Part shown: piece after piece, positions 4,127 through 21,806 of the stretch
How positions within the stretch are numbered: the first letter of the stretch is position 1
Layout: each line of letters opens with the position of its first letter
IMG/VR virus record: IMGVR_UViG_3300025853_000653
Coordinates: 1-23,883 of that record
Length of the DNA stretch: 23,883 nucleotides
Direction: 5' to 3' (one strand)
Source of the DNA: a virus
Notes under the pieces: model-generated
Seen by the model: the letters and a program-made list of their open reading frames with translations, nothing else
What the model was told of the DNA's origin: nothing
The model's database searches: none
Made by a program: the position numbers and the translations under genes

Positions 4127-4423
4127 ATGATTCCTGTTCTAACTACTCTATCGGTGATCGCTAGTTGGTATGGTCCTGGCTTCCATGGTAACCTTACTGC
4201 TAACGGTGAACGATATAATCAAAACGCCCTTACTACAGCGCACAAGACACTACCCTTTGGAACTAAACTTCGTGTATGTTTCAAGCGGTGTGCCGTTGTT
4301 CGGGTAAATGATCGTGGTCCTTACATTCATGGTAGGAATCTAGATCTAAGTAAAGGTGCGGCTGATGCTATCGGTCTCACTGGTTCTGGAGTTGGACAAG
4401 TCAAAGTAACTCGTCTTAACTAA
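4127..4423 (+). CDS. RlpA-like double-psi beta-barrel protein (putative peptidoglycan lytic enzyme)
   Basis: The 98 residues are almost exactly one RlpA-type double-psi beta-barrel: [10 protein letters not shown] (12-21), TANGERYN (24-31), [15 protein letters not shown] (36-50), [10 protein letters not shown] (57-66), then [13 protein letters not shown] and a closing strand QVKVTRLN. The Glu and Asp needed for lytic transglycosylase activity in bacterial RlpA appear conserved as E28 and D62. There is no lipobox Cys. The first 11 residues are hydrophobic but too short for a clear signal peptide, so export is uncertain; it could be a virion- or holin-dependent wall enzyme. No Shine-Dalgarno is seen near the ATG. 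psbA starts 5 bases after its stop, so the two are one transcription unit. Domain identity is secure; enzyme activity on host peptidoglycan is inferred. Confidence 0.88.
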
Positions 4424-4428
4424 CTTCA

Positions 4429-5484
4429 ATGGTTACTATTGCACAACCCCAAACTAAAAATCTTTGGGACGACTTCTGCGATTGGGTAACCAGTACAGAT
4501 AACCGTCTTTATGTCGGCTGGTTTGGGACACTGATGATTCCGTGTCTCCTTGCTGCAGCCATTTGTTTTATTATCGCTTTCATTGCTGCACCTCCGGTGG
4601 ACATTGATGGCATTCGTGAGCCTGTTGCTGGCTCTCTTCTTTATGGAAACAACATCATATCGGGAGCCGTCGTTCCGAGCAGCAATGCCATCGGACTACA
4701 CTTCTACCCAATTTGGGAAGCTAATTCACTTGATGAATGGCTCTACAACGGCGGTCCTTTCCAGCTTACCGTCTTCCACTTCCTCATTGGCATCTATGCT
4801 TACATGGGACGAGAGTGGGAACTTAGCTATCGACTAGGGATGAGGCCCTGGATTTGTGTCGCATACTCAGCACCAGTCGCTGCCGCCACGGCAGTTTTCC
4901 TTGTCTACCCGTTTGGTCAGGGTAGTTTCTCCGATGCTATGCCTCTCGGTATATCGGGTACCTTCAACTATATGCTCGTTTTCCAAGCCGAACATAACAT
5001 CCTCATGCACCCGTTCCACATGCTCGGTGTCGCTGGGGTATTTGGTGGGTCGCTATTTAGTGCGATGCACGGTTCACTTGTTACGTCCTCACTTGTACGT
5101 GAAACTACTGAAACGGAAAGCCAGAACTATGGTTACAAGTTTGGCCAAGAGGAAGAGACCTATAACATCGTGGCTGCCCACGGATATTTTGGGCGTCTCA
5201 TTTTCCAGTACGCAAGTTTTAATAATAGTCGCTCTCTGCACTTTTTCCTTGCTGCTTGGCCAGTGGTGGGTATTTGGTTCGCTGCTCTTGGCGTATCTAC
5301 TATGGCGTTCAACCTGAATGGGTTTAACTTCAATCAATCACTGGTATCTTCTGATGGTCGTGTCGTTAACACCTGGGCAGACATTCTCAACCGAGCTAAC
5401 CTCGGCTTTGAGGTGATGCACGAGCGCAACGCTCACAACTTCCCCCTTGATCTTGCTACACACACAGCCCCGGTGATTGGCTAA
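4429..5484 (+). CDS. psbA: Photosystem II D1 protein
   Basis: Complete 351-residue D1 with five membrane helices. Compared with cyanobacterial D1 it is one residue shorter at the N-terminus, so residue n here is n+1 in standard numbering. Visible landmarks: [16 protein letters not shown] with Glu at standard 130 (the high-light form; Gln is the other), the redox Tyr161 in FLVYPFG, Asp170 in GSFSDAM, the chlorophyll/iron His region ([11 protein letters not shown]), [18 protein letters not shown] near the QB site, and manganese-cluster ligands in [15 protein letters not shown]. The processing site after that Ala leaves only a short eight-residue tail (THTAPVIG). Phage D1 replaces rapidly turning-over host D1 so that light energy continues during infection. 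It overlaps the next gene (TAATG). Confidence 0.98.
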
Positions 5485-8126: not shown

Positions 8127-10666
8127 TGCCTGCTGTAACCCAACTAACACCGAACTTTCTTGGTGGTGTCTCTCAACAAAATGATGACAAAAAATTAAAC
8201 GGTCAGCTTACTGAGTGCATTAATGGGTATCCTGACCCTACCTTTGGTCTTTTAAAAAGGAGTGGTCTTAGGTTTACTAATGTATTAAAGAAACCTGATG
8301 GATCTTTTTTCAGTAAAACTGAACTTGAAAATGCAGCTTGGTTTTTTATTGAACGTGATATATCTGGTTCATACATTGGTGCTATCAAAGATGATAACAT
8401 TTATGTATGGGTAGCAGCTAGTGGTGAGTGGTGTACTGTTATCAATAATGGTACCAGTTATCTTACTGGCACAAGCCAAGCTGATTATCATTTCCGTAGT
8501 GTGCAGGATACAACTGTTGTTACCAATAGGTCAGTAGTAACTGCTATGCAGCCTGCTGGTACCTACACTGAGAATACAGTAGCCACTGTCGTCTTAAGTG
8601 TGTTGACAGCTGACTTTAATTATTCCATCACTATTCAAGGTATTGAGTTCTCTGTAACACCACAAAGTACGACGACCTTTGATGACATGTTGATATTTGA
8701 TTCAGGGAGTATCAACACTAATCATAACCTAATTGACGCCCTTAGGGCTGGACTTTTAGCACAACAATCTGCTAGTAACCCTGACTTTGATGGTATATGG
8801 TACCTTGAAAGTTATACTAATAGTATCGTAATTAAACGTACCACAGGTGCTAATGCTGTTATCTTAGATAACTCTACACCTACTGGTACTCCAATCCCAT
8901 TTACTATCACAGCTAAAGGTGGTGTATCTAATGACTCCCTCTATGCCTTCCAAGATTCGGTTGAAGATGTAACACGTCTTCCTACTGAATCCTTTCAAGG
9001 TCATCGGGTTAAGGTACTGAATAGTACTGTAGCAGAAGATGACTTCCACCTTAAGTTTGAAGCATACGATAATGATAGGGGTCGTGGTGTGTGGGAAGAA
9101 GGTAGGGCACGTGATGCTTCACCTGGTCTAGACTCTACGACAATGCCTTATCAGCTCCTTCGTACAGGTATTACATCGTTTGAATTCAAACCAATTAATT
9201 GGACAGAACGTCTTACTGGTGATGAAGTAACCAGTATAGTTCCTGCTTTTGTTGGTTATACTATTAACTCTACATTCTTTTATAGCAATAGGTTTGGCAT
9301 CCTTTCAGAAGATAACATCATCATGAGTCGGGCTAATGACCCGTTTAACTTCTTTGTTAAATCAGCTCTTACACAAGTAGATTCAGATCCTATTGATTTG
9401 AATGTTGCTAGTATTAGACCTGCTACTTTGTATGATGTTCTACCTTCTCCTCAAGGTTTGCTTGTCTTTAGTGACCGTCAACAGTTCCAAGTTTTTACAA
9501 CAGATGGTAGTGTACTGACTCCATCTTCAGCTATTGTTAGGGCTATCTCTAACTATGAAATGGATGCTACTATCCCACCAGCTGATGTAGGTACAACTGC
9601 TGCTTTTGTTAGCCAGGTGTCTGGTTACAGTAAACTATTTACCCTACAACTACGTGATGTTGAGCAACCTCCTATTGTTGTAGATATCAGTAAAGCAGTT
9701 CTGGAGTGGATTCCATCTACTGTTAATGACTTAGCAGTTAGCCCACAGAACTCTGTGATCATGTTGGTTGATCGTGGTAGCTCTTATCTTTACCTGTTTA
9801 GGTATTATAACAATGGTGAGAAAGATATCTTCCAAGCATGGACTAAATGGGAACTACCTGGTACTATCCAAACAGCTAAGATTATCAATGACTCTATTGT
9901 TGTCGTAGCACAGCATGAAGATGAATACACTATTGGTTCTATCACCCTTGATGAGATCCCCTCAGGAGAGGTCACCTCTAATACATCTGATGTGATTGGA
10001 AACCCTTGTTTAGATATGTTTACACGTCCTGTCTCACCAGCAGCTGGTGTAGATGCGGTGGTGTATGATGCGGCAAATGATGTCACCAAGGTCTACGTTC
10101 CATATACACCATTTCAACAACGAGAGGCAGCAATGCTTCTCACTAAACCACAAGCTGATCTAAATGATGCAGAAGCTCTTCTAGATGCTGATGCTGGTTA
10201 TTGGTCTGCTGCTACTGAACGTACAGAAGTTGGTACAGGTTATAGATACTTTGAAGTAAAGGGTAACTTCCTACCTTATGCTGACGGTATCGTTGTAGGT
10301 TATAACTATAACTTTGATGTAACACTACCTAAGTTCTACTTTAGACGTGATCAAACCACGACTGATTTTACTGCTACGTTAACGATTTCAAGAGTTAAGT
10401 TCTCTGTAGGTAGAACAGGTGCTATCCGCTTCCAAGTAAAACCAACAGGATCTAGTGAATGGCGTGATATACAACACGTAGCAGATGCTGACTATTATTC
10501 ATCGGATAGTAATCCAGTCAAACCTGAACGTGTCTTTACCATCCCTGTCCACCAACGTAATACTAATTTTGAATTAAAAGTGACAAGTAATTTTCCATAT
10601 CCTGTATCGTTGGTATCAATGATGTGGGAAGGTAACTATTCACCACGTCTTTATAGGAGGGTTTGA
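8126..10666 (+). CDS. 12: Tail tubular protein B (gp12), nozzle
   Basis: 846 residues, slightly longer than T7 gp12 (794). The opening TPNFLGGVSQQNDDKKLNGQ, then INGYPDPTFGLLKRSGLRF, is the family hallmark (GGxSQQ... N...GL.KR). Later segments (FQGHRVKVLNS, GRGVWEEGRARDASPGLDSTTMPYQL, FFYSNRFGILSEDNIIMSRANDPFNFF, LLVFSDRQQFQVF) are the conserved propeller and knob parts. Six copies form the tail nozzle below gp11, through which DNA leaves. No frameshift or truncation is seen. It is joined to gene 11 by overlapping stop/start, and its 3' end carries the ribosome binding site for gene 14. Confidence 0.95.
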   Translation: MPAVTQLTPNFLGGVSQQNDDKKLNGQLTECINGYPDPTFGLLKRSGLRFTNVLKKPDGSFFSKTELENAAWFFIERDISGSYIGAIKDDNIYVWVAASGEWCTVINNGTSYLTGTSQADYHFRSVQDTTVVTNRSVVTAMQPAGTYTENTVATVVLSVLTADFNYSITIQGIEFSVTPQSTTTFDDMLIFDSGSINTNHNLIDALRAGLLAQQSASNPDFDGIWYLESYTNSIVIKRTTGANAVILDNSTPTGTPIPFTITAKGGVSNDSLYAFQDSVEDVTRLPTESFQGHRVKVLNSTVAEDDFHLKFEAYDNDRGRGVWEEGRARDASPGLDSTTMPYQLLRTGITSFEFKPINWTERLTGDEVTSIVPAFVGYTINSTFFYSNRFGILSEDNIIMSRANDPFNFFVKSALTQVDSDPIDLNVASIRPATLYDVLPSPQGLLVFSDRQQFQVFTTDGSVLTPSSAIVRAISNYEMDATIPPADVGTTAAFVSQVSGYSKLFTLQLRDVEQPPIVVDISKAVLEWIPSTVNDLAVSPQNSVIMLVDRGSSYLYLFRYYNNGEKDIFQAWTKWELPGTIQTAKIINDSIVVVAQHEDEYTIGSITLDEIPSGEVTSNTSDVIGNPCLDMFTRPVSPAAGVDAVVYDAANDVTKVYVPYTPFQQREAAMLLTKPQADLNDAEALLDADAGYWSAATERTEVGTGYRYFEVKGNFLPYADGIVVGYNYNFDVTLPKFYFRRDQTTTDFTATLTISRVKFSVGRTGAIRFQVKPTGSSEWRDIQHVADADYYSSDSNPVKPERVFTIPVHQRNTNFELKVTSNFPYPVSLVSMMWEGNYSPRLYRRV
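10655..10660 (+). promoter_or_regulatory. Shine-Dalgarno AGGAGG fixing the start of gene 14 at 10669
   Basis: A perfect AGGAGG lies 8 bases before ATG 10669, inside the end of gene 12 (stop 10664-10666). It selects this ATG over the TTG at 10663. Confidence 0.85.
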
Positions 10667-10668
10667 AG

Positions 10669-11097
10669 ATGGCAATAGATCCTATCACTGGTGCAGTAAT
10701 TTCTGGTGTACTCAGTATCGGACAAGGTCTCTTCGGTGCAAGTCAAGCTCAAAAAGAGAATGATGCCGCTAAAAGAGCTGCTGAGAAAGCCCAAGCTTTA
10801 GCTAAAGAGAACACTAAAATCTCTAATAAATACAACAAAGAATTATTTAAAGCGGAGAGAGAAGATTACTATGCTCAAAGGGATTACCAGTACCAAATTG
10901 CTGTACAAAACTGGGAATATGGTAAGCAAATCCAAGATTTCGAGTATCAGCAGGCAATGCGTCAATACGCTAAGTCTGTCGGAATCTATGAGCAACAGTT
11001 AAACTTTAACGATCTTGCTGCTGATATATCGTATGCCAACGAAAGTGCTGCTCTTGCTGGACTCTTCACCCAACAAGCAACAAGCTTTTGCACGTGA
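10669..11097 (+). CDS. 14: Internal core protein gp14-like, N-terminal part (ends early by frameshift)
   Basis: Starts MAIDPITGAVISGVLSIGQG after a perfect Shine-Dalgarno. A short glycine-rich hydrophobic helix (residues 3-20) is followed by a long Lys/Glu/Gln coiled coil to about residue 120. The frame then runs out at TGA 11095-11097 with an aberrant end (ATSFCT). The true continuation (FAREDQIMGLQKALTEV) is in the next frame. The cause is a 7-base tandem duplication at 11072-11085; deleting one copy gives a continuous 414-residue protein. Position after gene 12 and before the two giant core genes identifies it as the gp14 equivalent: the internal head protein that is ejected and helps form a channel in the outer membrane in T7. 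It is longer than T7 gp14 (196). Confidence 0.85.
   Translation: MAIDPITGAVISGVLSIGQGLFGASQAQKENDAAKRAAEKAQALAKENTKISNKYNKELFKAEREDYYAQRDYQYQIAVQNWEYGKQIQDFEYQQAMRQYAKSVGIYEQQLNFNDLAADISYANESAALAGLFTQQATSFCT
11072..11085 (+). repeat. Tandem duplication AACAAGC x2 causing a frameshift in gene 14
   Basis: AACAAGC at 11072-11078 is repeated at 11079-11085. With one copy removed the reading becomes GLFTQQAFARED and joins the two halves of gene 14 without a stop. The region also holds TTTT (11086-11089) directly after, a conceivable +1 slip site, but the duplication explains the shift fully. Confidence 0.9.
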
Positions 11098-11107
11098 AGA
11101 TCAAATC

Positions 11108-11920
11108 ATGGGTCTTCAAAAGGCGTTGACTGAGGTTGCATTAAACCGTAGGACAACTGACCTTGAGATGCAAAGTGTCATCAATAAAGGTATTATTGGC
11201 AGCACAGCTATTCAAGAGAACCTTAAGGAGTTTACTCAACAAACTGACTTTAAGAAGCAAAGTGCTTTAGTTGAAACCCTACAAGAACAAGGTAAGAACG
11301 AACTACGTCAAGCTGGTGGTTCAGCACGTAAAGGTGCTCAAGCTACTATGGCTGGATTCTACCGTGGTATGTCTGAACTCTCTTCTGCTTTGTCTGGTAA
11401 GCAACGTCAGGCAGCATTGCAACTAGCTGAACTTGGTCTTGAAACTTCTATCCTTGAGAAGAAACTTGAGGTCCAAATGGAAAGCCTTGATAACACTGCA
11501 ATGAGTGCTATCGCTGATGCTCAGTTTAACATGCGTGTCTTGGATGCTGATATTGCTAGTGCTGTTGCTCAATCTGAACGTAATATGCAACAGATTAGTC
11601 TTCAGAAGTATGGTGCTGATTTGAATGCAGCAGCTAACTTAATGATCAAACCTGAAGCACTACCTTATGCACCTGCCCCAACATTGGCACCTGAACGTAT
11701 CTTTGTGAAACCTCCAAGGTATAAAGCTGGGGCTGTTGCACAACCTGCCCAACAAAGTGTATGGGGACCGTTGGTTAGTGGTGTTGCTAGTGGTATTAGT
11801 TCTGGTATTTCTGCTTACACAGATCTTTACAAGACTCAAGGTCAGAATACTTTAGGAAATATCCTAAACAAACCGTTTGACACAAGTTCAATTACTGCAA
11901 CTTCATTCCCTCCAAGGTAA
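11108..11920 (+). CDS. 14: Internal core protein gp14-like, C-terminal part (after the frameshift)
   Basis: This is the second half of the interrupted gene. The frame is open from before 11015, but bases before about 11079 in this frame are out of register with the real gene. If translated on its own it could start at ATG 11108 (MGLQKALTEVALNRRTTD) with only a weak GAAG upstream. Residues are Ala/Gln/Glu/Leu-rich long helices (KKQSALVETLQEQGKNELRQ, SALSGKQRQAALQLAELGLE). A Pro-rich stretch (ALPYAPAPTLAPERIFVKPP) and a glycine-rich helix VSGVASGISSGISAYTDLYK follow near the C-terminus. The glycine-rich helices at both ends of the restored protein fit a membrane-active ejection protein. Gene 15 begins 6 bases after the stop. 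Confidence 0.85.
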   Translation: MGLQKALTEVALNRRTTDLEMQSVINKGIIGSTAIQENLKEFTQQTDFKKQSALVETLQEQGKNELRQAGGSARKGAQATMAGFYRGMSELSSALSGKQRQAALQLAELGLETSILEKKLEVQMESLDNTAMSAIADAQFNMRVLDADIASAVAQSERNMQQISLQKYGADLNAAANLMIKPEALPYAPAPTLAPERIFVKPPRYKAGAVAQPAQQSVWGPLVSGVASGISSGISAYTDLYKTQGQNTLGNILNKPFDTSSITATSFPPR

Positions 11921-11926
11921 ACCGTA

Positions 11927-14900
11927 ATGGCACGACTAACACATAACCCGACAAGACCTGACTCAACCTTCCGTCCTCTTGAAATCAGTACAGCTGAGAT
12001 TACTCGGATGCGAGAAGAGACAGCTCGTATTGTCGATAACATGGAGAGGAATCGACGTGCTGAGCTTGAGCAAGGTATGGCTAATCTCCAAGCTATGCGG
12101 GAGAATGCTGAATATCAGCAACGTCAGCAGCAACGTAACTTTGAGATTGAACAACAAAATCTAAAAGCTGAGCAGCTTGAAAAACAACTTGAAGCTCAAA
12201 CAGCTCAAAATCAAGCTAAAATTAATCGAGAAGCTGCACAACAAATCTTTGGTAGTCTTTCTGGTCTAAGTCAAACAGCAGCCCAAGCTACCGCAGAAAT
12301 TAAGGTAGAAAATGAGAAGCGTGATTTCTACGCGTCTTATATCTCTGCTGCTGTAAACCCTGACTATGTAAAAGAGACTTGGTACAAAGATAATGAAATC
12401 AAACTACTACAAAGTGGTGAGATTTATAGCAGCACTATAGCACAACAAGAAGCATTAGGCGCTGACCCTTTGTCTAGTGCTAAAGCAAGAATTAGCAACC
12501 CTGCTCTTACACACTTCTCTAATAAAGGTAATGCTACCTTTATCCTCAGTAATCAATACTCTTTAGCACTTGAAGCGGTATTGAATTCAGGAATTACTGT
12601 CCCTTATAAAGGGCAGACAGTAGATATCTCTCAAGCGAGACGCAACCCAGAACTTATGGGTATTGCCGGTACGTTTGCGTTGAGGACACTTCTTCAAAAA
12701 GCTAACTTGGTTGGTCTTGATGATCAATTCTTGATGCCTGGTTTGAAGGAAGCTAATCAATACCTTCTTTCACAACAAGCACAAGCTTCTAAGTTGCAGC
12801 GGGAGGATATCAACTTACAAAATGAAGAGCTAATTCTCAATACAATTCGTAACAACGTTGATGGTTTAGCTACTTATGGTCCTACGGGTTTCCGTCAGTT
12901 AGCATCCCTACCTCACCTTGGTTATGCTGGAGCACTTGATAAGTTTGAAAGCTTTGCTATTGAACGTGATCAGGATGGAAACTTTAGGTACTCCATGGAG
13001 GAGCTTAAGGGTCTAGATGTTCGCGGTAATGGACGTACCTTTGCAGAAGAATGGCCAAATCGTTGGACATCTATGCAAGAGGCTAGGGTTAAGTCCCAGA
13101 TTGAATACGATCGACGTGAACTTACTATTGATGATATCACGTTCACTAAAGATTCTGATCGTATCCTTGGTGGTCTTACAGAAGATCCAACTGAAGCTAA
13201 TGCTAATGCAGCGGTTGATTACTTCCGTAAAACTTATGGTAAAGTACCTCCTGAAATCCTTAAATTTCAAGCTTCTTATACTACTGAAGCAATCCAAAAG
13301 ATTGAAGCTATTAAGAAACTAGAGGCTATTCCTGATGGTCTCATTACTCAAGAGGCTGTAGCTGCTGCTGCTGCCTTGGATCCTACTGCTGCACGTGCTT
13401 TGCAACAACGCTATCAAGCACAGGAAGCACGATATAACTCTGGTATTTATAAGGAGACTGCCGAAGCGTTTAAATCTACTGCTAATGGTGTTACCTCCTT
13501 TGGTACGAACAAACCAAACACACCTTCTAGTGTCTTCCTTCAAGAACGGATGCGAGCTGAATATCGTAAACGTGTAGACCAAGCTGTAGCAGGTGGTATG
13601 AACTTTAACCAAGCTGCTACTACTATTGGTCAAGCTTTGGATGCAGAAGTTAAAGCAGGTGCTCGTGACCCTAACAGTCAGTGGTTCCGTAAGGCTGATT
13701 CCCCAGGTGGTTCTGCACAGTTCCCTAATCTTAATAAAGGTAGTCTGACTGCTCTTGAACGTGCTAACCGTAGGTTCACTGAACTTAAGAATAACATTAC
13801 TACCAACGGTCTTCAGCAAACAATTGATACAAAGAATACAATCATTACCGCTGAAGAAGCGCCTATCATTGCAAAGAACTATGGTAAACCTGGGTTCACT
13901 ATCCCTCAAGATGTCCTAGCTGTTTCTGGTATGTCTAATGGTTTGGATCCAATGGTGATCATTAACCGTCAATTCCAAGCACTTGGTCTTCCTCCCCTTC
14001 AACCACCCCCATCTCTACAGACTACTGGTCAAACAGTAAGCCCTGCTTTCCAACGTCTTCTTTATAAAACACCTAGTCCTGAACGTTCTACACGTGGTCT
14101 TGGTTCAACTAATATGTTTAACCCAACAGTTGTTCCTAATGGACTTGGTGTTATGTATCAACAAGCTGGTGAAGCAACTGGTGTAAATCCTGCATTTATT
14201 GCAGCATTGGGTGAAATTGAAAGCACACACAACACTAATAGTGTTAGCTATAATGGTTCTTCCTTTGGTGTGATGCAAATCAATAAAGCTGCTCATCCCA
14301 ACTTCTTTGCACAGAATGATTGGAAGAACCCCCAAGCTAACATTAACTACGGTGCTCAGTATTACAAGCAAATGCTTGATAGGTACGGTGATCCAGTAGC
14401 TGCTGCTATGGCATATAATGCTGGTCCTGGTAACTATGATGCTTATGTACGTGGTGAGATGCCTGATGGTCGTAAGAAGACTGAGATGGTTAACCACGGT
14501 AAGAAGTTCACTAAGGCTTTGTATAAGTACGGTGGTGCTAGTTCTGGAGTACTTAACAACCCCGCACTGATGCGTGATGGCTCTCAACTGCAATCTTCAC
14601 GAATGATGATGATTCCTGAACGTGCTCTTCGTACATTCTCTCCTCAAGTATCTTCCATTACTTTTGATACCGGACAGCCTGGTATTGACGTTTTCTTTGA
14701 AGATAAAAAATTTCCAGCTGTATTGCCTGGTGTCGTAAAAGATATCAGCTTCCAAGGTGGGCAAGGAAAAGGTTATGGTAACTATGTTGTTATCGAATCT
14801 ATTGATCCAGAAACTAATGAAAAAGTTGATATTCTCTATTCTCACTTAGCTTCTAAACCTAACCTTAACCCTGGTCAAACAGTAAGGCTTGGTCAAATCA

Positions 14901-15058
14901 TCGGACAACAAGGTGGTACTGGTAGGGTTGTGAGTGCAGATGGAACTATCGCTTCTATCGACTTTCTACGTCCTGCTCCACAAGGAAGTAAAGATATGAC
15001 GCCTTATAGGAATTACGACTCTCTTCGTCGTCGAATCGCTAGTCAACTACGATCTTAA
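11927..15058 (+). CDS. 15: Internal core protein gp15-like with lytic transglycosylase and degenerate M23 domains
   Basis: 1043 residues (T7 gp15 is 747). Residues about 25-125 form a Gln/Glu-rich coiled coil, followed by a long helical core. Residues about 745-870 are a soluble-lytic-transglycosylase domain: NPAFIAALGEIESTHN with catalytic Glu765, then SSFGVMQINKAAH and AMAYNAGPGNYDAYVRG. Residues about 915-1030 resemble an M23 peptidase (YGNYVVIES, LYSHLASKPNLNPGQTVRLG, GQIIGQQGGTG), but its zinc ligands are gone. The HRGID motif reads QPGID (Gln917, Asp921), and the HLH motif reads SID (1010-1012). The transglycosylase should open the peptidoglycan during DNA ejection; the M23-like part is probably a binding or structural module. 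In T7 the transglycosylase is in gp16 instead. Confidence 0.9.
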   Translation: MARLTHNPTRPDSTFRPLEISTAEITRMREETARIVDNMERNRRAELEQGMANLQAMRENAEYQQRQQQRNFEIEQQNLKAEQLEKQLEAQTAQNQAKINREAAQQIFGSLSGLSQTAAQATAEIKVENEKRDFYASYISAAVNPDYVKETWYKDNEIKLLQSGEIYSSTIAQQEALGADPLSSAKARISNPALTHFSNKGNATFILSNQYSLALEAVLNSGITVPYKGQTVDISQARRNPELMGIAGTFALRTLLQKANLVGLDDQFLMPGLKEANQYLLSQQAQASKLQREDINLQNEELILNTIRNNVDGLATYGPTGFRQLASLPHLGYAGALDKFESFAIERDQDGNFRYSMEELKGLDVRGNGRTFAEEWPNRWTSMQEARVKSQIEYDRRELTIDDITFTKDSDRILGGLTEDPTEANANAAVDYFRKTYGKVPPEILKFQASYTTEAIQKIEAIKKLEAIPDGLITQEAVAAAAALDPTAARALQQRYQAQEARYNSGIYKETAEAFKSTANGVTSFGTNKPNTPSSVFLQERMRAEYRKRVDQAVAGGMNFNQAATTIGQALDAEVKAGARDPNSQWFRKADSPGGSAQFPNLNKGSLTALERANRRFTELKNNITTNGLQQTIDTKNTIITAEEAPIIAKNYGKPGFTIPQDVLAVSGMSNGLDPMVIINRQFQALGLPPLQPPPSLQTTGQTVSPAFQRLLYKTPSPERSTRGLGSTNMFNPTVVPNGLGVMYQQAGEATGVNPAFIAALGEIESTHNTNSVSYNGSSFGVMQINKAAHPNFFAQNDWKNPQANINYGAQYYKQMLDRYGDPVAAAMAYNAGPGNYDAYVRGEMPDGRKKTEMVNHGKKFTKALYKYGGASSGVLNNPALMRDGSQLQSSRMMMIPERALRTFSPQVSSITFDTGQPGIDVFFEDKKFPAVLPGVVKDISFQGGQGKGYGNYVVIESIDPETNEKVDILYSHLASKPNLNPGQTVRLGQIIGQQGGTGRVVSADGTIASIDFLRPAPQGSKDMTPYRNYDSLRRRIASQLRS

Positions 15059-15069
15059 TTAATTAAACT

Positions 15070-18000
15070 ATGGAATACGATCCTACAGAGATGTTCAGGG
15101 TTGATCCAGGTGAAATGGAACTCTCTCCTGAGTTTCAAGCACAGCTAGAACAAGAGCGGCAGTCTGAACAAGTCGCCGCTCAAGCTGCTGCAATGGCTGG
15201 AACAACTACCCCTACGGGGGGACAACCTGGACAAGCTCAACCCTCTCAACCTGCTACGGCAGGTGAGCAACAAACTCCTTTTGATCCAGGTTTTGACATT
15301 GGTGATGCTGCTAGACAAGTAGTAGAAGGTGGTCTTTCAGTACCAGCTGGTCTTGTTGATTTTGGTGTTGACCTTATCAATAAACTTCCTGGTGTTAATG
15401 TACCTAAACCACCTGAATTTCAAACTAAACACCTCCAAGCACTTCGAGAGATTGCATCCGTTGTAGCACCTACTATTATCCTTTCTAAACTTGGTATTAA
15501 AGGTGGTACTGCAGCACATTCACGTGTTGGCTGGTCTCTTGGTAATAATGCTTTTGTTAAAGCAGCTAGTGGTCTAGGTATTGAACTTGGTGCTGGTGTT
15601 GCAGTTGGGGCTGTTAGCAGTGAGTATGAAGAGGATAACCTTACAGGTTCATTAAAACAGAACTTTCCAGAGACTTGGGATTTCATTCCTGATTCACTAG
15701 CTACACTTAAAGATGATCCCCCGGACCTTAAGCGTAAGAAGAACATCTATGAAGACCTCGGTATGGGCGCCTTCACCAGTGTTGCTGAGGGTGTCGTTAA
15801 GTTCACTGGGGCTATGGTTGATGCAGCCAGATCTCTTCGTAAATCCAATCGTCTTGTTGGTGAAACCCCTCAAGCTAAAGCATGGCTTGAAGCTAATGCT
15901 CCTAAACCTTCTTCAATGGATCCTGAAGATGTTATCACTGCATCTGCTATCAAACAAGAGGAAGCGTTGGATGAGCTTGGTTACTACAACATGTCCGAGA
16001 ACCCCAATATGGATGTACCACTTAAAGGTATCCATGATCTCTTTGACTACACCGAATTGGGTGTTCGTACTGTAGATGACTTTGGTGTTGTCGGTGCTGC
16101 TATTGACCAAGCACGAATTGCTAAGAACCTAGATACTGTCTACGGTCGTCTTGGTAACATGATCTCTGAACCTGCTCTTAAGTATGCACTGAAGAGTGGT
16201 GATAATGCTCAAGATATTGTTCTTGGTCTTGCTGATCAATTACAACAAGCTGGTCGTATTGGTATGGAAGGTGATGGTTGGAAAGTCACCTTTGATGATG
16301 TAATGGATGCTAACGAAGATCTAGCAATTCAATTGTTTGATCCTCGGATGAGTAAAGGAGAAGTACGTCAAGTTCTTGAACCCTTCATTATTCGTAGTGA
16401 AGATGGACGTGAAGTAATGGTTGAGGAAGGCTTCGCTATGGCTGCACGTGCATTGCGTGGCTTTGGTACTGAACTCACCAGTATGGATGTTGGTCGTGCT
16501 CAAGCATTACTTGCTGGTTCTCTGTCTGGACGTATCTCTGACCTTGCAGAAGGTGCACGTCTGATGGAAGGTACTTCCGCTGTTGAAGCTGCTCAAGAGA
16601 AAGTTATTGACTTGATGCAGTACGTTACTCAATTGTCTGGTTCTGCTAAATACTACAAGAACCGTAAGGCTAACCTGATTCAACTTGTTCAGAATGGTTT
16701 CCGTAACATTGAAGGTTACAACCTGGCTACTATTGAAGGGGCTGGTGATGTAGCACAAAGTATCTTTAAAGATTCTCAACGCTTTGCTGATACCCTAAGG
16801 CAGATCTCTTTCAATCAACCTCGTTTGATGGATGAGTTTTTGTTTGCTTATGAAATTACCGATGGTGATATTGATACCATTGTTAAGATGAATAAGTGGA
16901 TCCATGGAATGACGCTTGACCTAGGTAAAGGTATCATTAACCTTAACCCAGATGTACAGAACAAGCTAATTGCTGGTGTATGGTCTAACATCTTCAATAA
17001 CATGCTGTCTGCATTTAAGACACCTATTGAAGCTCTTGTAGGTAACTTTGGTGGTATCATCTCTCAACCTATCGCTCACTTTGCAGGTGCTGCAATGGCT
17101 GGGGATATTAAAGCTATGCAACGTGGTTGGATTGCTTATAGCTCCATCGGTGATACGTTGAAGAAAGCATTACCTTATGCTGGTGATGTCTTCATGCGTG
17201 CATCTAAGGAACCTAACTCTGTACGATCTGGTACACGTATTGACCTTCTCCTTTCACAAGAACGGGAGCTTGAATTCCTTAAGATGTCTGCACAACGTCA
17301 GGCACAAGAGGGTAATTATGGTCTTCAATACGTGGTTAATCAAATAGAGATGCTGAATGATCTTGGTAAGGATCCAGTATTGCGGTTTGGTGTTAATGGC
17401 ATGACTGCAACTGATGGTCTTACTGGAGCATTTAATGCAGCAGCTGAGGCACGTTTTCGTGCTATGGATGAACTTGTGTCAGCTGGTAAGGAAGTGACTA
17501 AAGAAAACGTCAAACCTATTGCTGATAAGTACTATGGTGAGATGTTTGGCGCTGATGGTCTACTTAAAGACGAAGCTGTTAAGTATGCTACTGATGAGAT
17601 GGCACTTAACATTGATAGTAACCTTTCTAAAGGTATGTCAGCACTAGTCAATATGGTTCCTGGTCTCCGTCCATTTATGATGTTCCCTACCACTGGTATG
17701 AACCTCATTGAAATGAGTGGTAAGTATGGACCGTGGATGCCTTTCCAACGTGATGTTAATGAATTAGCCTACGTTAAACTACAAGATCTCTTTGCTGATG
17801 AAGCACGTGTCGATGAATTGCTTCGTGCACGTAACATTGATGTAGAGAACCTTGATACTATTGCTAAGCAAAACAAACTTGCTGATCTTAAGTACACCAC
17901 AAGGGGACGTAAAGCTCTCGGTGCTGCAGCTGTAACAGGAGCTATTGGTCTTGTTTTAAATGATCGTATTACTGGTGATGGTATCTACGATAAAGAGATC

Positions 18001-18957
18001 CAACGTGCTCGGGAGAAGAACTCTAACTGGAAACCTCGTAGCATCAAAGGTGCTGATGGTAAGTGGTATTCCTACGAAGCAATGGGTCCGCTTGCTGATG
18101 CTATAGCACTTGTTGCTAACATCTCTGATAACTTTGATATGCTTGGTGAAGCGGCTGTTGAACGTCTCTTTGAGAAGACAGCTTTTATTATTGGTGCATC
18201 CATTACTGATCGTACCGCTCTTTCTACTATCAAACCATTGCTTGATATCGTTAGTGGTAACGAAGGTGCTTTGACTCGTTGGGCTGCTGGCTTTACTAAT
18301 AGTCTTGGTCCCCTAGCAGGACAACGTGCTGAATGGTCTCGTATCTTTAGTGAAGGTCTCCGTGAAGTAGATAATGACTTTCTCTCGTTGCTTGGTAACC
18401 GTAATAGCTATCTAGATATGTCTAACCGTCACCCCTATATTTATAGCCCGGTGACTGGTGAGAAGGCTAATGGCTATGGTCTATTGCAACGTGTCTGGAA
18501 TGCTTATAGTCCGATTAAAGTTCATGCTGAGCAATCTTCAGAGGAACGTTTCCTTCAAGAGATGGAGTTTGATATTAACACTACCTTCCGTACTAAAGAT
18601 GGTGTCAAACTTAAAGCAGCTGAACGTTCTGAGTTGTTCCGTTTGATGGGTACACGTGGTTTCTTCAAAGAAGAAATTCGTAACATCATGAGTGATGCTG
18701 GTAACTGGGATAGCATTGCTAAACTACGTGAAGCACGTCTGCGTGGTTTGAAGTCTGATGAAGTATCAATTAAAAAATGGCATGATCTTTATGCAAGGCT
18801 TTCTGATGCACGACGTGCTGCAGAAGAACTAGCTTATGCTGAGATGAGTGCTGAAATGTTCGGTCAAATTGAAGCACGTCAAATTGAACGTGATATGATC
18901 GAAGAAGCTAATATTGCTGGTGAAACACTTAACCCTGCTCTTTCTATTCGTAAGTAA
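15070..18957 (+). CDS. 16: Internal core protein gp16-like (DNA ejection protein), 1295 aa
   Basis: The length matches T7 gp16 (1318), but no transglycosylase motif is seen at the N-terminus. That part is acidic and Gln/Pro-rich (residues 1-75). Residues 90-185 hold hydrophobic, glycine-rich segments (SVVAPTIILSKLGIKGGTAA, ASGLGIELGAGVAVGAV) that could enter a membrane. The C-terminal third has VNMVPGLRPFMMFPTTGMNL, a short hydrophobic helix (GAAAVTGAIGLVL), and FTNSLGPLAGQRAEWSRIF, NGYGLLQRVWNAYSPIKV and MGTRGFFK motifs typical of podoviral gp16-type internal proteins. It would form the inner core and then line the periplasmic/inner-membrane channel that pulls DNA in. ATG 15070 follows an AT-rich gap (TTAATTAATTAA) of 11 bases without a clear Shine-Dalgarno. 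Confidence 0.9.
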   Translation: MEYDPTEMFRVDPGEMELSPEFQAQLEQERQSEQVAAQAAAMAGTTTPTGGQPGQAQPSQPATAGEQQTPFDPGFDIGDAARQVVEGGLSVPAGLVDFGVDLINKLPGVNVPKPPEFQTKHLQALREIASVVAPTIILSKLGIKGGTAAHSRVGWSLGNNAFVKAASGLGIELGAGVAVGAVSSEYEEDNLTGSLKQNFPETWDFIPDSLATLKDDPPDLKRKKNIYEDLGMGAFTSVAEGVVKFTGAMVDAARSLRKSNRLVGETPQAKAWLEANAPKPSSMDPEDVITASAIKQEEALDELGYYNMSENPNMDVPLKGIHDLFDYTELGVRTVDDFGVVGAAIDQARIAKNLDTVYGRLGNMISEPALKYALKSGDNAQDIVLGLADQLQQAGRIGMEGDGWKVTFDDVMDANEDLAIQLFDPRMSKGEVRQVLEPFIIRSEDGREVMVEEGFAMAARALRGFGTELTSMDVGRAQALLAGSLSGRISDLAEGARLMEGTSAVEAAQEKVIDLMQYVTQLSGSAKYYKNRKANLIQLVQNGFRNIEGYNLATIEGAGDVAQSIFKDSQRFADTLRQISFNQPRLMDEFLFAYEITDGDIDTIVKMNKWIHGMTLDLGKGIINLNPDVQNKLIAGVWSNIFNNMLSAFKTPIEALVGNFGGIISQPIAHFAGAAMAGDIKAMQRGWIAYSSIGDTLKKALPYAGDVFMRASKEPNSVRSGTRIDLLLSQERELEFLKMSAQRQAQEGNYGLQYVVNQIEMLNDLGKDPVLRFGVNGMTATDGLTGAFNAAAEARFRAMDELVSAGKEVTKENVKPIADKYYGEMFGADGLLKDEAVKYATDEMALNIDSNLSKGMSALVNMVPGLRPFMMFPTTGMNLIEMSGKYGPWMPFQRDVNELAYVKLQDLFADEARVDELLRARNIDVENLDTIAKQNKLADLKYTTRGRKALGAAAVTGAIGLVLNDRITGDGIYDKEIQRAREKNSNWKPRSIKGADGKWYSYEAMGPLADAIALVANISDNFDMLGEAAVERLFEKTAFIIGASITDRTALSTIKPLLDIVSGNEGALTRWAAGFTNSLGPLAGQRAEWSRIFSEGLREVDNDFLSLLGNRNSYLDMSNRHPYIYSPVTGEKANGYGLLQRVWNAYSPIKVHAEQSSEERFLQEMEFDINTTFRTKDGVKLKAAERSELFRLMGTRGFFKEEIRNIMSDAGNWDSIAKLREARLRGLKSDEVSIKKWHDLYARLSDARRAAEELAYAEMSAEMFGQIEARQIERDMIEEANIAGETLNPALSIRK

Positions 18958-18962
18958 CAATC

Positions 18963-21806
18963 ATGTCTTGTGCTGACGTACAAACAATTCAAGCAGGTAA
19001 TGGAGTAAAGACTCAGTTCTCTTTTGACTTCCCTTACCTTTTTAAATCAGAAGTTCAAGTTTCCTTTTGGAATGTCACAACTAAAGAATGGGACGTAATT
19101 GCACAAACTGATGCTACCTATCCTTGGCAGCTTACAGATGCTAACCCTACTATTGTAGAGTTTACAGGTACTGCACCTCCGACTCCTGCAACACCTGTTA
19201 ATCCTGATGAACCTACGGTTGATAATGTTCGGATTCGTCGTGTTACTAACATTGATAACATCCGAGCATTGTTCAACCCAGGTTCTGCTATCCGATCAGA
19301 TGATCTAAATAAGAACTTTGAACAGCTTCGTTATGCTATTCAAGAAGGTAATTGTCAAGAAGTACCTGCAGAGATCTATGACTTCCTGAGGGATTACTAT
19401 TGGAATACCTTTAGTGATGTTATCTACTCTACTGATAATTGGACAAGTGCTGATAACAAGATTGCTACTACTGCAGCAATTGACGGTCAAACTGCTCTTA
19501 ATTTTGATACACTTGTTCAAACAGCTACCCCATCTGGTAGTGATTGGCGTGTTGGTAAGACGTGGCTTCAGAACAATGCTGATCTAACTGTTTCTATTTG
19601 GAATGGTAGTGCATGGACAGGTGTTGCGTCAGGTGGTACATTTACTACTCAACCAAAGGTTGTCTATGTAGATGCGTCTAGTGGTGATGACACTAATGAT
19701 GGTCATCGTATTAGCCGTCCTAAAGCTACTATTAAAGCAGCTGTTGAACAAGTCAACGCTGATGCTACCTATGGTGATGGTAGTGTTATTGTTGTAGCAC
19801 CTGGTGTCTATGAAGAAGTAGCACCTATTGATATCACCCGAAAGGATGTGTCTATTGTTGGTACAACTTATCGTGGTTGTGTTGTCCATCCTACAGTAGC
19901 TACTGAAGAGAATGTATTGTTCCGTGTTAATAGTGGTACCTACATTCAAAACATCACATTTACTGGGATGAAAGCTAGTGGTGTACGGGGTGCTGCAGGT
20001 TCTGTTGATCCTGATGGTACCTACGGTCTACCTCCTAATCAAGGTTGGAACATTGCGTTCTATCCTAATGCAATGATTTATAAGTCACCTTATATTCAAA
20101 ATTGCATTAACTTCTCGGATTCTGAGATTGATAATAGTGCTTTGAATCCTAACACCCCAGCTGGTGGTGCTGCTGGTGATACTGATTCTGAACCGACTGG
20201 TGGTGGTATCCTTATTGATGGCTCTGCTGTTCATGCTAACAGCCCGCTACGTTCAATGGTATGTGATAGTTACTCTCAGGTTTGTTTGGATGGTCCTGGT
20301 ATTCTTGTTACTAATAACGGTTACTGTCAAGCGACAAGTACCTTTGCATTCTTTGCTCATTACCACCTGAAGTGTTTGAATGGTGGTCAAGCTAATATCA
20401 GTGGTTCTACTACTGACTTCGGTCGTTATGGTTTGATTGCTGATGGTAAGTCTACTTCTGCAATCTTTACTGCTACTACTACAGCTAATGCTGCTAATCA
20501 AGATATCACCTTTACGATTGGAGCACCTGTTGCAGGTGTTAACTGGTATGGTTCTGCTACACGTCCACAGAACAATATGGTTGTGGAAATTGGTGGTAAC
20601 ACATATCCAGTGTTATCTGCATCAGCTAATGGTTCTGGTTGGGATGTTACTATTCTTCGCCCAAATCCTGCTGATAAGTCAGAGAACCTTGGACTTGATG
20701 GTGCTGTAAGTAGTGGAGCTAGTGTTAGCTTCTACCTTCGTTCTATGATTGCCTCTAGTAATCACACAATGGAGTATTGCGGAGCTGGTACTAACTATTC
20801 TGCTCTTCCTGAGAATGGTGGTGTACCTGTTGAAGCAGCTCAAGTTGTTGAACGTAACAATGGTAAAGTTTGGGCAGCTATCACTGATCAAAGTGGTAAG
20901 TTTAAACTTGGTGACTTCTTTGTTGTTGATCAACAAAATAGCACTATTACACTTACAACTGGTACTATCCCACTTGATCTTAGTGAGCTAACTATTGCTC
21001 CTAATGGTGATGCACAACTCAATACTAACCTAGATCTTAACGGTAACCATATTCTTGATAGCACTGGTTCTGTCAGTATCAACGATACGTTGACGATGAA
21101 CCTTAATAAGATCACTAATGTTGGTGAACCTTCTAGTGCTCAAGATGCTGCTACTAAAAACTACGTTGATAGTTATGCAGTAACTGTTGCTGATATTGGT
21201 TCTAGTGTTCAAGCTTATGATGCTAACCTACCAGCTGGTAATACTATCCTTGTTGATGGTGATATTGGGGTAACTGTTGAAGCCTATGATGCAACTATCC
21301 TTAAAGATGCCGACATTGGTGTAACTGTTGAAGCCTATGACGCTACTATCCTTAAGGATGCTGATATTGGCGTAACAGTTGAGGCATATGATGCTACTAT
21401 TGTTAAAGATGCTGATATCGGTGTTACTGTCCAAGGTTATGACGCAGATACTGCTAAGACGGATGTTGCTCAAACCTTTACAGCAGGTCAACGTGGTGGT
21501 GTAACAGCACTAACTGATGCAGCTACTATTGTTCTTAACTTCAATGATAGTAACTACTTTAGTGTAACCCTTGGTGGTAACCGTGTGCTTGATAATCCAT
21601 CTAATGCAGTTGCCGGTCAATCCGGTGCTATCTTCATCACACAAGATGGTACTGGTGGTCGTACATTGAGTTACGGTGGTAATTGGTCTTGGTCTGATGG
21701 TAATGCACCTACCCTATCCCTCAGCCCTAATGCTGTAGACGTACTGATTTATATGGTACTGAGTCCTACATCAATCGTGGGTCATGTTATGAAGAATGTT
21801 CAGTAA
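18963..21806 (+). CDS. 17: Tail fibre protein (T7 gp17-type N-terminus), 947 aa
   Basis: Residues about 1-130 match the T7 tail-fibre attachment domain (QTIQAGNGVKTQFSFDFPYL, VRIRRVTNID, LNKNFEQLRYAIQEGN). Residues about 230-480 look like a right-handed beta-helix of the DUF1565/pectate-lyase type: VYVDASSGDDTNDG, RPKATIKAAVEQ, VIVVAPGVYEEV. Residues about 700-760 are a beta/coiled linker with NLDLNGNHILD and AQDAATKNYVDSYAV. Four 17-residue repeats of the type DIGVTVEAYDAT follow at 767-833. The C-terminus (VAQTFTAGQRGGVTAL, SVTLGGNRVLDNPSN, GAIFITQDGTGGRTLSYGG) is a domain shared by many marine phage fibres. The trimer would bind the host surface; receptor specificity is not readable. It begins 5 bases after gene 16. 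Confidence 0.92.
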   Translation: MSCADVQTIQAGNGVKTQFSFDFPYLFKSEVQVSFWNVTTKEWDVIAQTDATYPWQLTDANPTIVEFTGTAPPTPATPVNPDEPTVDNVRIRRVTNIDNIRALFNPGSAIRSDDLNKNFEQLRYAIQEGNCQEVPAEIYDFLRDYYWNTFSDVIYSTDNWTSADNKIATTAAIDGQTALNFDTLVQTATPSGSDWRVGKTWLQNNADLTVSIWNGSAWTGVASGGTFTTQPKVVYVDASSGDDTNDGHRISRPKATIKAAVEQVNADATYGDGSVIVVAPGVYEEVAPIDITRKDVSIVGTTYRGCVVHPTVATEENVLFRVNSGTYIQNITFTGMKASGVRGAAGSVDPDGTYGLPPNQGWNIAFYPNAMIYKSPYIQNCINFSDSEIDNSALNPNTPAGGAAGDTDSEPTGGGILIDGSAVHANSPLRSMVCDSYSQVCLDGPGILVTNNGYCQATSTFAFFAHYHLKCLNGGQANISGSTTDFGRYGLIADGKSTSAIFTATTTANAANQDITFTIGAPVAGVNWYGSATRPQNNMVVEIGGNTYPVLSASANGSGWDVTILRPNPADKSENLGLDGAVSSGASVSFYLRSMIASSNHTMEYCGAGTNYSALPENGGVPVEAAQVVERNNGKVWAAITDQSGKFKLGDFFVVDQQNSTITLTTGTIPLDLSELTIAPNGDAQLNTNLDLNGNHILDSTGSVSINDTLTMNLNKITNVGEPSSAQDAATKNYVDSYAVTVADIGSSVQAYDANLPAGNTILVDGDIGVTVEAYDATILKDADIGVTVEAYDATILKDADIGVTVEAYDATIVKDADIGVTVQGYDADTAKTDVAQTFTAGQRGGVTALTDAATIVLNFNDSNYFSVTLGGNRVLDNPSNAVAGQSGAIFITQDGTGGRTLSYGGNWSWSDGNAPTLSLSPNAVDVLIYMVLSPTSIVGHVMKNVQ
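21258..21461 (+). repeat. Four 51-base (17-codon) tandem repeats in the tail fibre gene
   Basis: Units start at 21258, 21309, 21360 and 21411. Units 1-3 encode (G/A)DIGVTVEAYDATI(L/V)KD; unit 4 diverges to VQGYDADTAKT. A weaker relative (DIGSSVQAYDANL) precedes them at about 21192. Synonymous differences between units show that the copies are not very recent. In-frame repeats of this kind can change fibre shaft length by recombination. Confidence 0.9.

Follow-up and report, generated by a model that had tools for sequence, protein, structure and literature searches.

A conserved M23-fold module without histidine zinc ligands at the C-terminus of a T7-like cyanophage gp15-like ejection protein

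The gp15-like internal virion protein encoded by the window, the whole stretch of 23,883 nucleotides analysed here (IMG/VR record IMGVR_UViG_3300025853_000653), ends in a lytic transglycosylase domain followed by a compact module of the M23 peptidase fold. From comparison of sequences, this module appears to be a pseudo-enzyme that is under stronger purifying selection than the adjoining SLT enzyme. The same module is attached to gp15 bodies that bear no detectable resemblance to that of the window, and its candidate pocket residues do not vary.

The window is of T7-like cyanophage origin, carrying a photosystem II D1 gene, a ribonucleotide reductase beta fragment and a gp16-like gene. The features that define the genomic context are as follows.

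51-590, ribonucleotide reductase beta fragment
4429-5484, photosystem II D1 gene (phrog_182)
11927..15058, + strand, gp15-like internal virion (ejection) protein of 1043 residues, a single ORF immediately preceding the gp16 homologue (PHROG matches phrog_90 and phrog_24152)
15070..18957, + strand, gp16-like internal virion protein with no recognised lytic domain (phrog_6651)
18963-21806, tail-fibre-type ORF (matches to tail-fibre PHROGs)

The ejection proteins are arranged in the same gene order as in T7, with a gp15-sized ORF preceded by a gene at the gp14 position and followed by gp16 and then the tail fibre. The ORFs at the gp14 position match phrog_20153, a family of unknown function, and gp14 is thus named by position alone. 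The gp15 of the window is probably a protein that the cyanophage injects into its host. For gp16, Pfam gave nothing at E ≤ 1, and the sole PHROG at E ≤ 0.01 is phrog_6651, annotated as 'internal virion protein'.

Two domains joined by a linker make up the C-terminal part of gp15.

14156..14455, + strand, SLT lytic-transglycosylase domain, gp15 residues 744-843 (PF01464, E 2.5e-17; fold match to Slt 5ohu)
14219..14221, + strand, codon of the catalytic Glu765 (E in 21/21 SLT rows of the alignment)
14546..14626, + strand, low-confidence linker between the SLT domain and the module, residues ~874-900 (block pLDDT 50-51, model residues 141-170)
14651..15052, + strand, M23-fold module without His zinc ligands, residues 909-1042 (PF01551, lysostaphin/LytM fold, 67 copies)

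Family 1 lytic transglycosylases are characterized by a catalytic Glu and by the motifs G-[LVI]-M-Q and A-Y-N-x-G. All three are found in the SLT domain of gp15, where Glu765 is the second Glu of E763-I-E765-S, GVMQ occupies residues 781-784 and AYNAG starts at residue 829. Across the alignment of 21 SLT rows, E765, G781 and Q784 are each present in 21 and M783 in 17; AYNxG was checked in the gp15 of the window only. The Pfam match to PF01464 scores 62.9 bits against a cut-off of 21.3, and the SLT part of the gp15 model superposes on Slt (VIA-align Z-score of 17.1 with PDB entry 5ohu) and on residues 8-153 of a T7 core chain (Z-score of 13.9 and 26% identity with 9jyy_I). The preliminary description had placed a transglycosylase with Glu765 in gp15 and none in gp16; the first point is supported by the Pfam score and the intact Glu765, the second by the gp16 scan. 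In T7, by contrast, the transglycosylase domain lies at the N-terminus of gp16 (residues 1-156), and no M23-like module is mentioned for T7 in the excerpt available of the source (PMC8954989).

The AlphaFold2 model of gp15, which covers residues 732-1043, has a mean pLDDT of 84.7 and a pTM of 0.51, with pLDDT mostly 76-92 in the blocks of the module. The low-confidence linker and the pTM value mean that no fixed arrangement of the SLT domain and the module is indicated. The M23 β fold that had been proposed for the gp15 C-terminus is present: Pfam family PF01551 (Peptidase_M23) matches residues 918-1000 above its cut-off (E 3.8e-7, 30.6 bits against 28.7), and model residues ~165-312 superpose on lysostaphin (Z-score of 14.0 over 129 residues at 2.8 Å with 4lxc), LytM (Z-score of 13.3 with 4zyb) and EnpA (Z-score of 13.3 with 6smk). 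M23 structures account for 5 of the 50 VIA-align matches listed, and the remaining 45 fit the SLT part. By sequence, DipM (7qrl) is a weak match to the module (E 0.34, and 0.067 in a PDB profile search). The top of the PDB profile search was occupied by repeat proteins ('Cake'), whose repeated weak matches were set aside.

In M23 enzymes, zinc is bound by the His and Asp of an H(x)nD motif and by one His of an HxH motif; the leading His of that motif activates the water instead of binding the metal, and a further His about 30 residues before HxH may assist (PMC9662197, in excerpt). The corresponding positions of the module are listed below.

14675..14677, + strand, Gln917, replacing the first His of HxxxD (Q in 67/67 distinct modules)
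14687..14689, + strand, Asp921, the retained Asp of HxxxD (D in 67/67 distinct modules)
14843..14845, + strand, His973 (Y-S-H-L), counterpart of the His preceding HxH (H in 67/67; aligned by hhalign to the canonical His)
14954..14962, + strand, S1010-I-D1012, replacing HxH, register uncertain by two residues (S1010 and D1012 in 67/67)

The H(x)nD motif is thus replaced by Q917-PGI-D921, the HxH motif is missing, with no His among residues 1001-1043 of the window gp15, and the His ahead of HxH is represented by H973. The equivalents of the M23 site are Gln917, Asp921, Asp1012 (or Ser1010), Ser1010 (or Ile1008) and His973, the alternatives arising from the register of HxH. This register is uncertain by two residues, because sequence alignments end near residue 1001 (the hhalign alignment with M23 profiles ends at G-T-G-R-V) and a joint MAFFT alignment sets HxH on I1008-A-S1010 instead of S1010-I-D1012. 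A resemblance to T-G-[AP]-H-L-D in S-CBP1 and DSL-LC07, judged by eye, weakly favours the S-I-D register. In either register, two of the three zinc ligands and the catalytic His of HxH are absent. Metal ligands elsewhere in the module were sought and rejected, since H973 is the only invariant His among the 67 distinct modules, 50 of which have no other His, and none of the 67 contains a Cys. The earlier assignment of Gln917 to the first His and of S-I-D (1010-1012) to HxH is therefore borne out in position, with the two-residue uncertainty for S-I-D and no His either way. An M23 fold with an incomplete ligand set is also the condition of degenerate LytM factors.

The set of 67 distinct modules comprises those of at least 100 residues among 176 rows from 217 sequences, including that of the window. 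Q917, D921, H973, S1010 and D1012 are unvarying in all 67, in an alignment in which 35 of the 134 columns are invariant; the hypergeometric probability is ~0.001 for five of five candidate pocket positions and 0.017 for three of three, which gives modest support because the sequences are related. The patterns by which loci were found spanned part of the motifs: Q917, H973 and D1012 lay outside those of the first scan, and D1012 was inside those of the later scan of relatives, in which 80 of 128 relatives were used. Modules with only the second pattern of the first scan keep Q917 and D921 (38/38), and those with only its first pattern keep S1010 and D1012 (3/3).

Selection was estimated by the NG86 method between the window and five close relatives (L042, L044, L046, L049 and L053), and the estimates are rough, with some dS values above 1. 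In that order, dN/dS is 0.020, 0.031, 0.047, 0.052 and 0.062 for the module, 0.198, 0.109, 0.226, 0.094 and 0.332 for the SLT domain, and 0.197, 0.073, 0.235, 0.126 and 0.283 for the gp15 body. Decay of a redundant domain was rejected on the basis of the invariant candidate pocket and the module dN/dS of 0.02-0.06. Against 14 distant modules, the module of the window has a pS of 0.55-0.87, and the 10 of these with a finite dS give a dN/dS of 0.11-0.23 at dS values near or past saturation. The high identity of the module is therefore attributed to constraint, and recent horizontal spread was rejected as its cause.

A scan of IMG/VR with the module gave 120 loci encoding relatives, 80 of which were used, yielding 60 distinct modules; some differ by few residues, so these are not 60 independent lineages. 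The module ends 0-5 residues before the C-terminus of gp15 in all 80 loci used. In 27 of the 60, the gp15 body has no BLAST match to that of the window (three more are too short), and the module is 63-74% identical to that of the window in these 27 cases. A gp16 could be recognised in 17 of them, 24-35% identical over the best segment, and went undetected in 10, one of which (L073) has only ~1 kb of downstream sequence present. The occurrence of one module on dissimilar gp15 bodies indicates, at the level of sequence, that the module is mobile.

The domain upstream of the 60 distinct modules is SLT in 23, lambda-lysozyme-like in seven, GH73 in one and SLT_3 in one. No glycan-cutting domain was recognised upstream in the other 28, a count that is an upper bound because Pfam missed the lambda-like domain. 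Eleven of these 28 were scanned with Pfam, and M23 was the only wall family, below its cut-off in three; seven gp16 proteins scanned from loci without a recognised cutter beside the module gave no hydrolase family. The preliminary description had suggested that the module is perhaps a peptidoglycan-binding clamp by which the active enzyme is positioned, a role that is unsupported in general, given the modules without a recognised cutter and the varied neighbours of the others. The unvarying pocket, the low dN/dS, the dissimilar bodies and the modules without a recognised cutter together argue that the module is neither decaying nor simply the clamp of its neighbour.

The C-terminal position is also occupied by other domains. 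The gp15 proteins of L006 and L007 keep the SLT domain (85% identity) but end in an NlpC/P60-like domain instead of the module, and such a C-terminal domain was found in 13 loci; the assignment is tentative, because the model of this domain is poor (pLDDT 63.5) and its best match is 4xcm NlpC/P60 at E 0.03. In S-RIP1, gp16 is 68% identical to that of the window, and gp15 has no M23 match and a lambda-lysozyme-like end. None of the 379 pattern matches obtained in genome contigs was a relative; the patterns are specific to the phage family, and the module may therefore still have a host ancestor.

Wall-lytic domains were surveyed with Pfam in 22 named phage gp15 proteins, one of them from a pelagiphage, with those of P60 and SS120-1 left out and P-SSP3, NATL2A-133 and some other records also outside the survey. 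Wall-hydrolase matches at or above cut-off were obtained in 9 of the 22.

S-CBP4 gp15, SLT and M23 (at or over cut-off)
S-CBP2 gp15, M23, the same degenerate module (at or over cut-off)
S-SBP1, S-RIP2 and S45C4 gp15, Hydrolase_2 (at or over cut-off)
S-SRP01 gp15, GH73 and M23 (at or over cut-off)
S-CBP1 and DSL-LC07 gp15, GH73 (at or over cut-off)
S-CBP3 gp15, SLT_3 (at or over cut-off)

Matches in S-B28 and Syn5 fall below cut-off, and 11 of the 22 have none; among these 11, a local lambda-lysozyme-like profile matches S-RIP1 (one of the seeds of that profile) and S-TIP37 (E 1.4e-6). The 14 gp16 proteins scanned, that of the window included, gave no match to a peptidoglycan-hydrolase family. 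Among the closest named counterparts are those of Synechococcus phages: the gp15 of S-CBP4 has the module with its Q..D / H / S-[IV]-D residues (65% identical) together with an SLT domain, and the gp15 of S-CBP2 has the same module (60% identical) but, unlike that of the window, lacks an SLT match and continues for ~200 residues beyond the module, an exception to its terminal position. Both domains are already annotated, as UniProt names these proteins 'Transglycosylase SLT domain-containing' (S-CBP4) and 'M23ase beta-sheet core domain-containing' (S-CBP2).

An M23 domain with intact zinc motifs, lost in the module of the window, is present in the gp15 of S-SRP01 (HEGND, HVH) and in a 1131-residue ORF of the Mastigocladus phage CHP58 (HAGID, HLH), so the gp15 site can house a normal M23 domain. 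The T7-like cyanophage TC-CHP58 is reported to have an 'internal protein-M23-peptidase' (PMC6129581, in excerpt). Permuted M23-like tails in S-CBP1 and DSL-LC07 have HxD where HxH is expected, and these pieces alone match the M23 profile weakly (E 0.03-0.09 where printed). Outside the cyanophages, the gp15 homologues of K1E and K1-5 (gp35) have lysozyme activity, and such swapping has been called thematic (PMC8954989, in excerpt); the OEP of PhiM1, which we read as a gp15 counterpart, has a lysozyme-like domain (Gly718-Ser903; PMC11440229, in excerpt). Neither excerpt mentions a degenerate M23 module, and no mention of one was found in a literature search that covered mostly titles and abstract beginnings, with few subscription journals. 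The placement of the cutter in gp15 thus stands, while the novelty implied by the preliminary description is reduced: with 9 of 22 gp15 proteins matching, homologues published and 14 gp16 proteins without a match, a cutter in gp15 is ordinary for cyanopodoviruses.

We tentatively favour, as the most likely reading, that the module is a non-hydrolytic, wall-binding pseudo-peptidase. An active hydrolase that cuts stem peptides or cross-links through a remodelled metal site (Gln917, Asp921 and Asp1012 with His973 being one such set) is unlikely. Judged by the M23 criteria (PMC9662197, in excerpt), the module lacks two zinc ligands out of three as well as the leading His of HxH, D1012 is a candidate ligand in only one of the two registers, and the HxD pieces of S-CBP1 and DSL-LC07 have a weak M23 match of their own. 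Nevertheless, five positions invariant in 67 of 67 modules, very low dN/dS, the parallel change from HxH to HxD in S-CBP1 and DSL-LC07 and the intact M23 domains of S-SRP01 and CHP58 are consistent with such an enzyme. Re-ligated activity would best explain the modules without another recognised cutter, namely the 28 of 60 with no other gp15 wall domain recognised, and the seven gp16 proteins scanned from such loci gave no hydrolase family. That the module caps the virion core or the ejected tube as a structural element, touching gp14, gp16 or the portal, is quite improbable: such a role would fit a strongly conserved domain found at the C-terminus of an ejection protein in all 80 loci, but gp16 is far more divergent than the module, L006 and L007 end in a different domain, and S-RIP1 lacks the module despite its similar gp16. 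A gp16 of such similarity can thus function in the absence of the module, although the module may still touch gp16.

A LytM-factor-like regulator or recruiter, whose groove would dock and tune a wall hydrolase (the SLT domain in cis or a host autolysin), is as unlikely as the active hydrolase. There is precedent for degenerate LytM domains that raise or lower the activity of SLTs: DipM, the weak sequence match of the module, interacts with SdpA and SdpB, stimulating the former, and loses this binding when the groove surrounding its inactive site is mutated (PMC10336132, in excerpt), and the LytM and CHAP domains of PrgK from plasmid pCF10 reduce SLT activity on Enterococcus faecalis wall (PMC11323569, in excerpt). 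PrgK is the nearest published architecture found, in that a degenerate LytM domain and an SLT domain share one polypeptide of a DNA-delivery machine; unlike gp15, it is a membrane protein of a Gram-positive T4SS with an additional CHAP domain, and regulation has been measured in it (PMC11323569, in excerpt). The damping was absent on Gram-negative wall and a mix of separate LytM and SLT was ineffective (PMC11323569, in excerpt), docking is not supported by a model with a pTM of 0.51, and regulation in cis is hard to reconcile with neighbours that are SLT, GH73, SLT_3, lambda-like or none. DipM, EnvC and NlpD also combine the M23 fold with an incomplete catalytic set (PMC10336132 and PMC9662197, in excerpt), but they are bacterial division regulators, whereas here every candidate pocket position is fixed across phages. 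That the module is a phage mimic of host LytM factors, recruiting or switching on cyanobacterial autolysins at the site of entry, would explain the 28 of 60 modules without a recognised cutter and the frozen pocket, and is improbable.

For the non-hydrolytic, wall-binding reading, the C-terminus of cyanopodovirus gp15 may be viewed as an exchangeable peptidoglycan-entry cassette, which in the phage of the window consists of a motif-intact SLT domain, a flexible linker and the putative M23-fold pseudo-peptidase. The module has lost its zinc and catalytic histidines while keeping the fixed candidate pocket set of Q917, D921, H973, S1010 and D1012, and is most likely non-cutting. It probably binds a chemically constant periplasmic ligand, the simplest candidate being the stem peptide of peptidoglycan, which is the substrate of M23 enzymes. 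Such binding would keep the gp15 tube, along with any lysin it carries, anchored at the sacculus during channel formation. A constant ligand is suggested over a co-evolving phage partner by the constancy of the module across dissimilar gp15 bodies and divergent gp16, and the constant pocket, mobile C-terminal module, changing neighbours and wall-enzyme site point to recognition of a constant wall ligand. Two observations weigh against the pseudo-peptidase: an invariant pocket that retains H973 could equally mean retained chemistry, and where no glycan hydrolase was recognised (28 of 60) the module might itself be the cutter.

To our knowledge, wall crossing by cyanopodoviruses has been little studied. 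These viruses affect the mortality of dominant marine primary producers (PMC9860041, in excerpt). The puzzle lies in the strong preservation of a 'dead' domain, the cutter in gp15 being ordinary, and the module is compact and carried by two phage isolates, S-CBP4 and S-CBP2. A conserved pseudo-enzyme on dissimilar gp15 proteins would imply a step in wall crossing that is masked by the annotation 'Peptidase M23'.

The M23-like module of the window's gp15 (residues 909–1042), which retains the M23 fold without the His zinc ligands, yielded a profile that weakly matches residues 682–745 of PDB entry 9k2v_E (E = 0.055). This solved protein, named 'Internal protein' (1,058 aa, 10 chains), may hold an M23-type domain.

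The gp15 of phage S-CBP1 (L028) has a GH73 domain followed by an M23-like domain (residues about 870–987), and the gp15 tail of DSL-LC07 (L038) likewise has an M23-like domain after GH73. In both tails, the motif S-T-G-[AP]-H-L-D precedes S-H-G-I-D ... L-H-G, which lies close to the end, and HxD replaces HxH, the second zinc/catalytic motif of canonical M23 enzymes. By motif order, the tail domain of both proteins looks like a circularly permuted M23. The M23 profile match spans the join in a self-joined DSL-LC07 copy (positions 16–111); it did not span the join in a self-joined S-CBP1 copy.

In L006 and L007, two related loci, the gp15 C-terminus carries an NlpC/P60-like domain where the window has the M23-like module, the SLT being common to both arrangements. 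The NlpC/P60-like set comprises 13 loci (L124–L136); the Cys and His are fixed in all nine aligned copies (9/9), and the structure model is of low confidence. A lambda-lysozyme-like domain occurs at the gp15 C-terminus of S-RIP1 (L018), and also in L060, L067, L070–L073 and L081, either by itself or preceding the M23-like module, depending on the locus. Pfam missed this domain in these gp15s; the name 'lambda-like' is a presumption from the sequence pattern, and its support consists of a local profile and phrog_90 ('endolysin').

Two further regions of the window comprise the following features.

4127–4423, RlpA-like DPBB_1 protein, 98 aa (PF03330, E = 2.8e-24)
10663–11097 and 11015–11920, gp14-position gene, two overlapping ORFs, both matching phrog_20153

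In the near-identical locus L001, the gp14-position gene is a single intact ORF of 418 aa, and its split in the window is probably a small indel or a sequencing error in the contig. The RlpA-like ORF is directly followed by the photosystem II D1 gene, and its product is a candidate lytic transglycosylase or endolysin.
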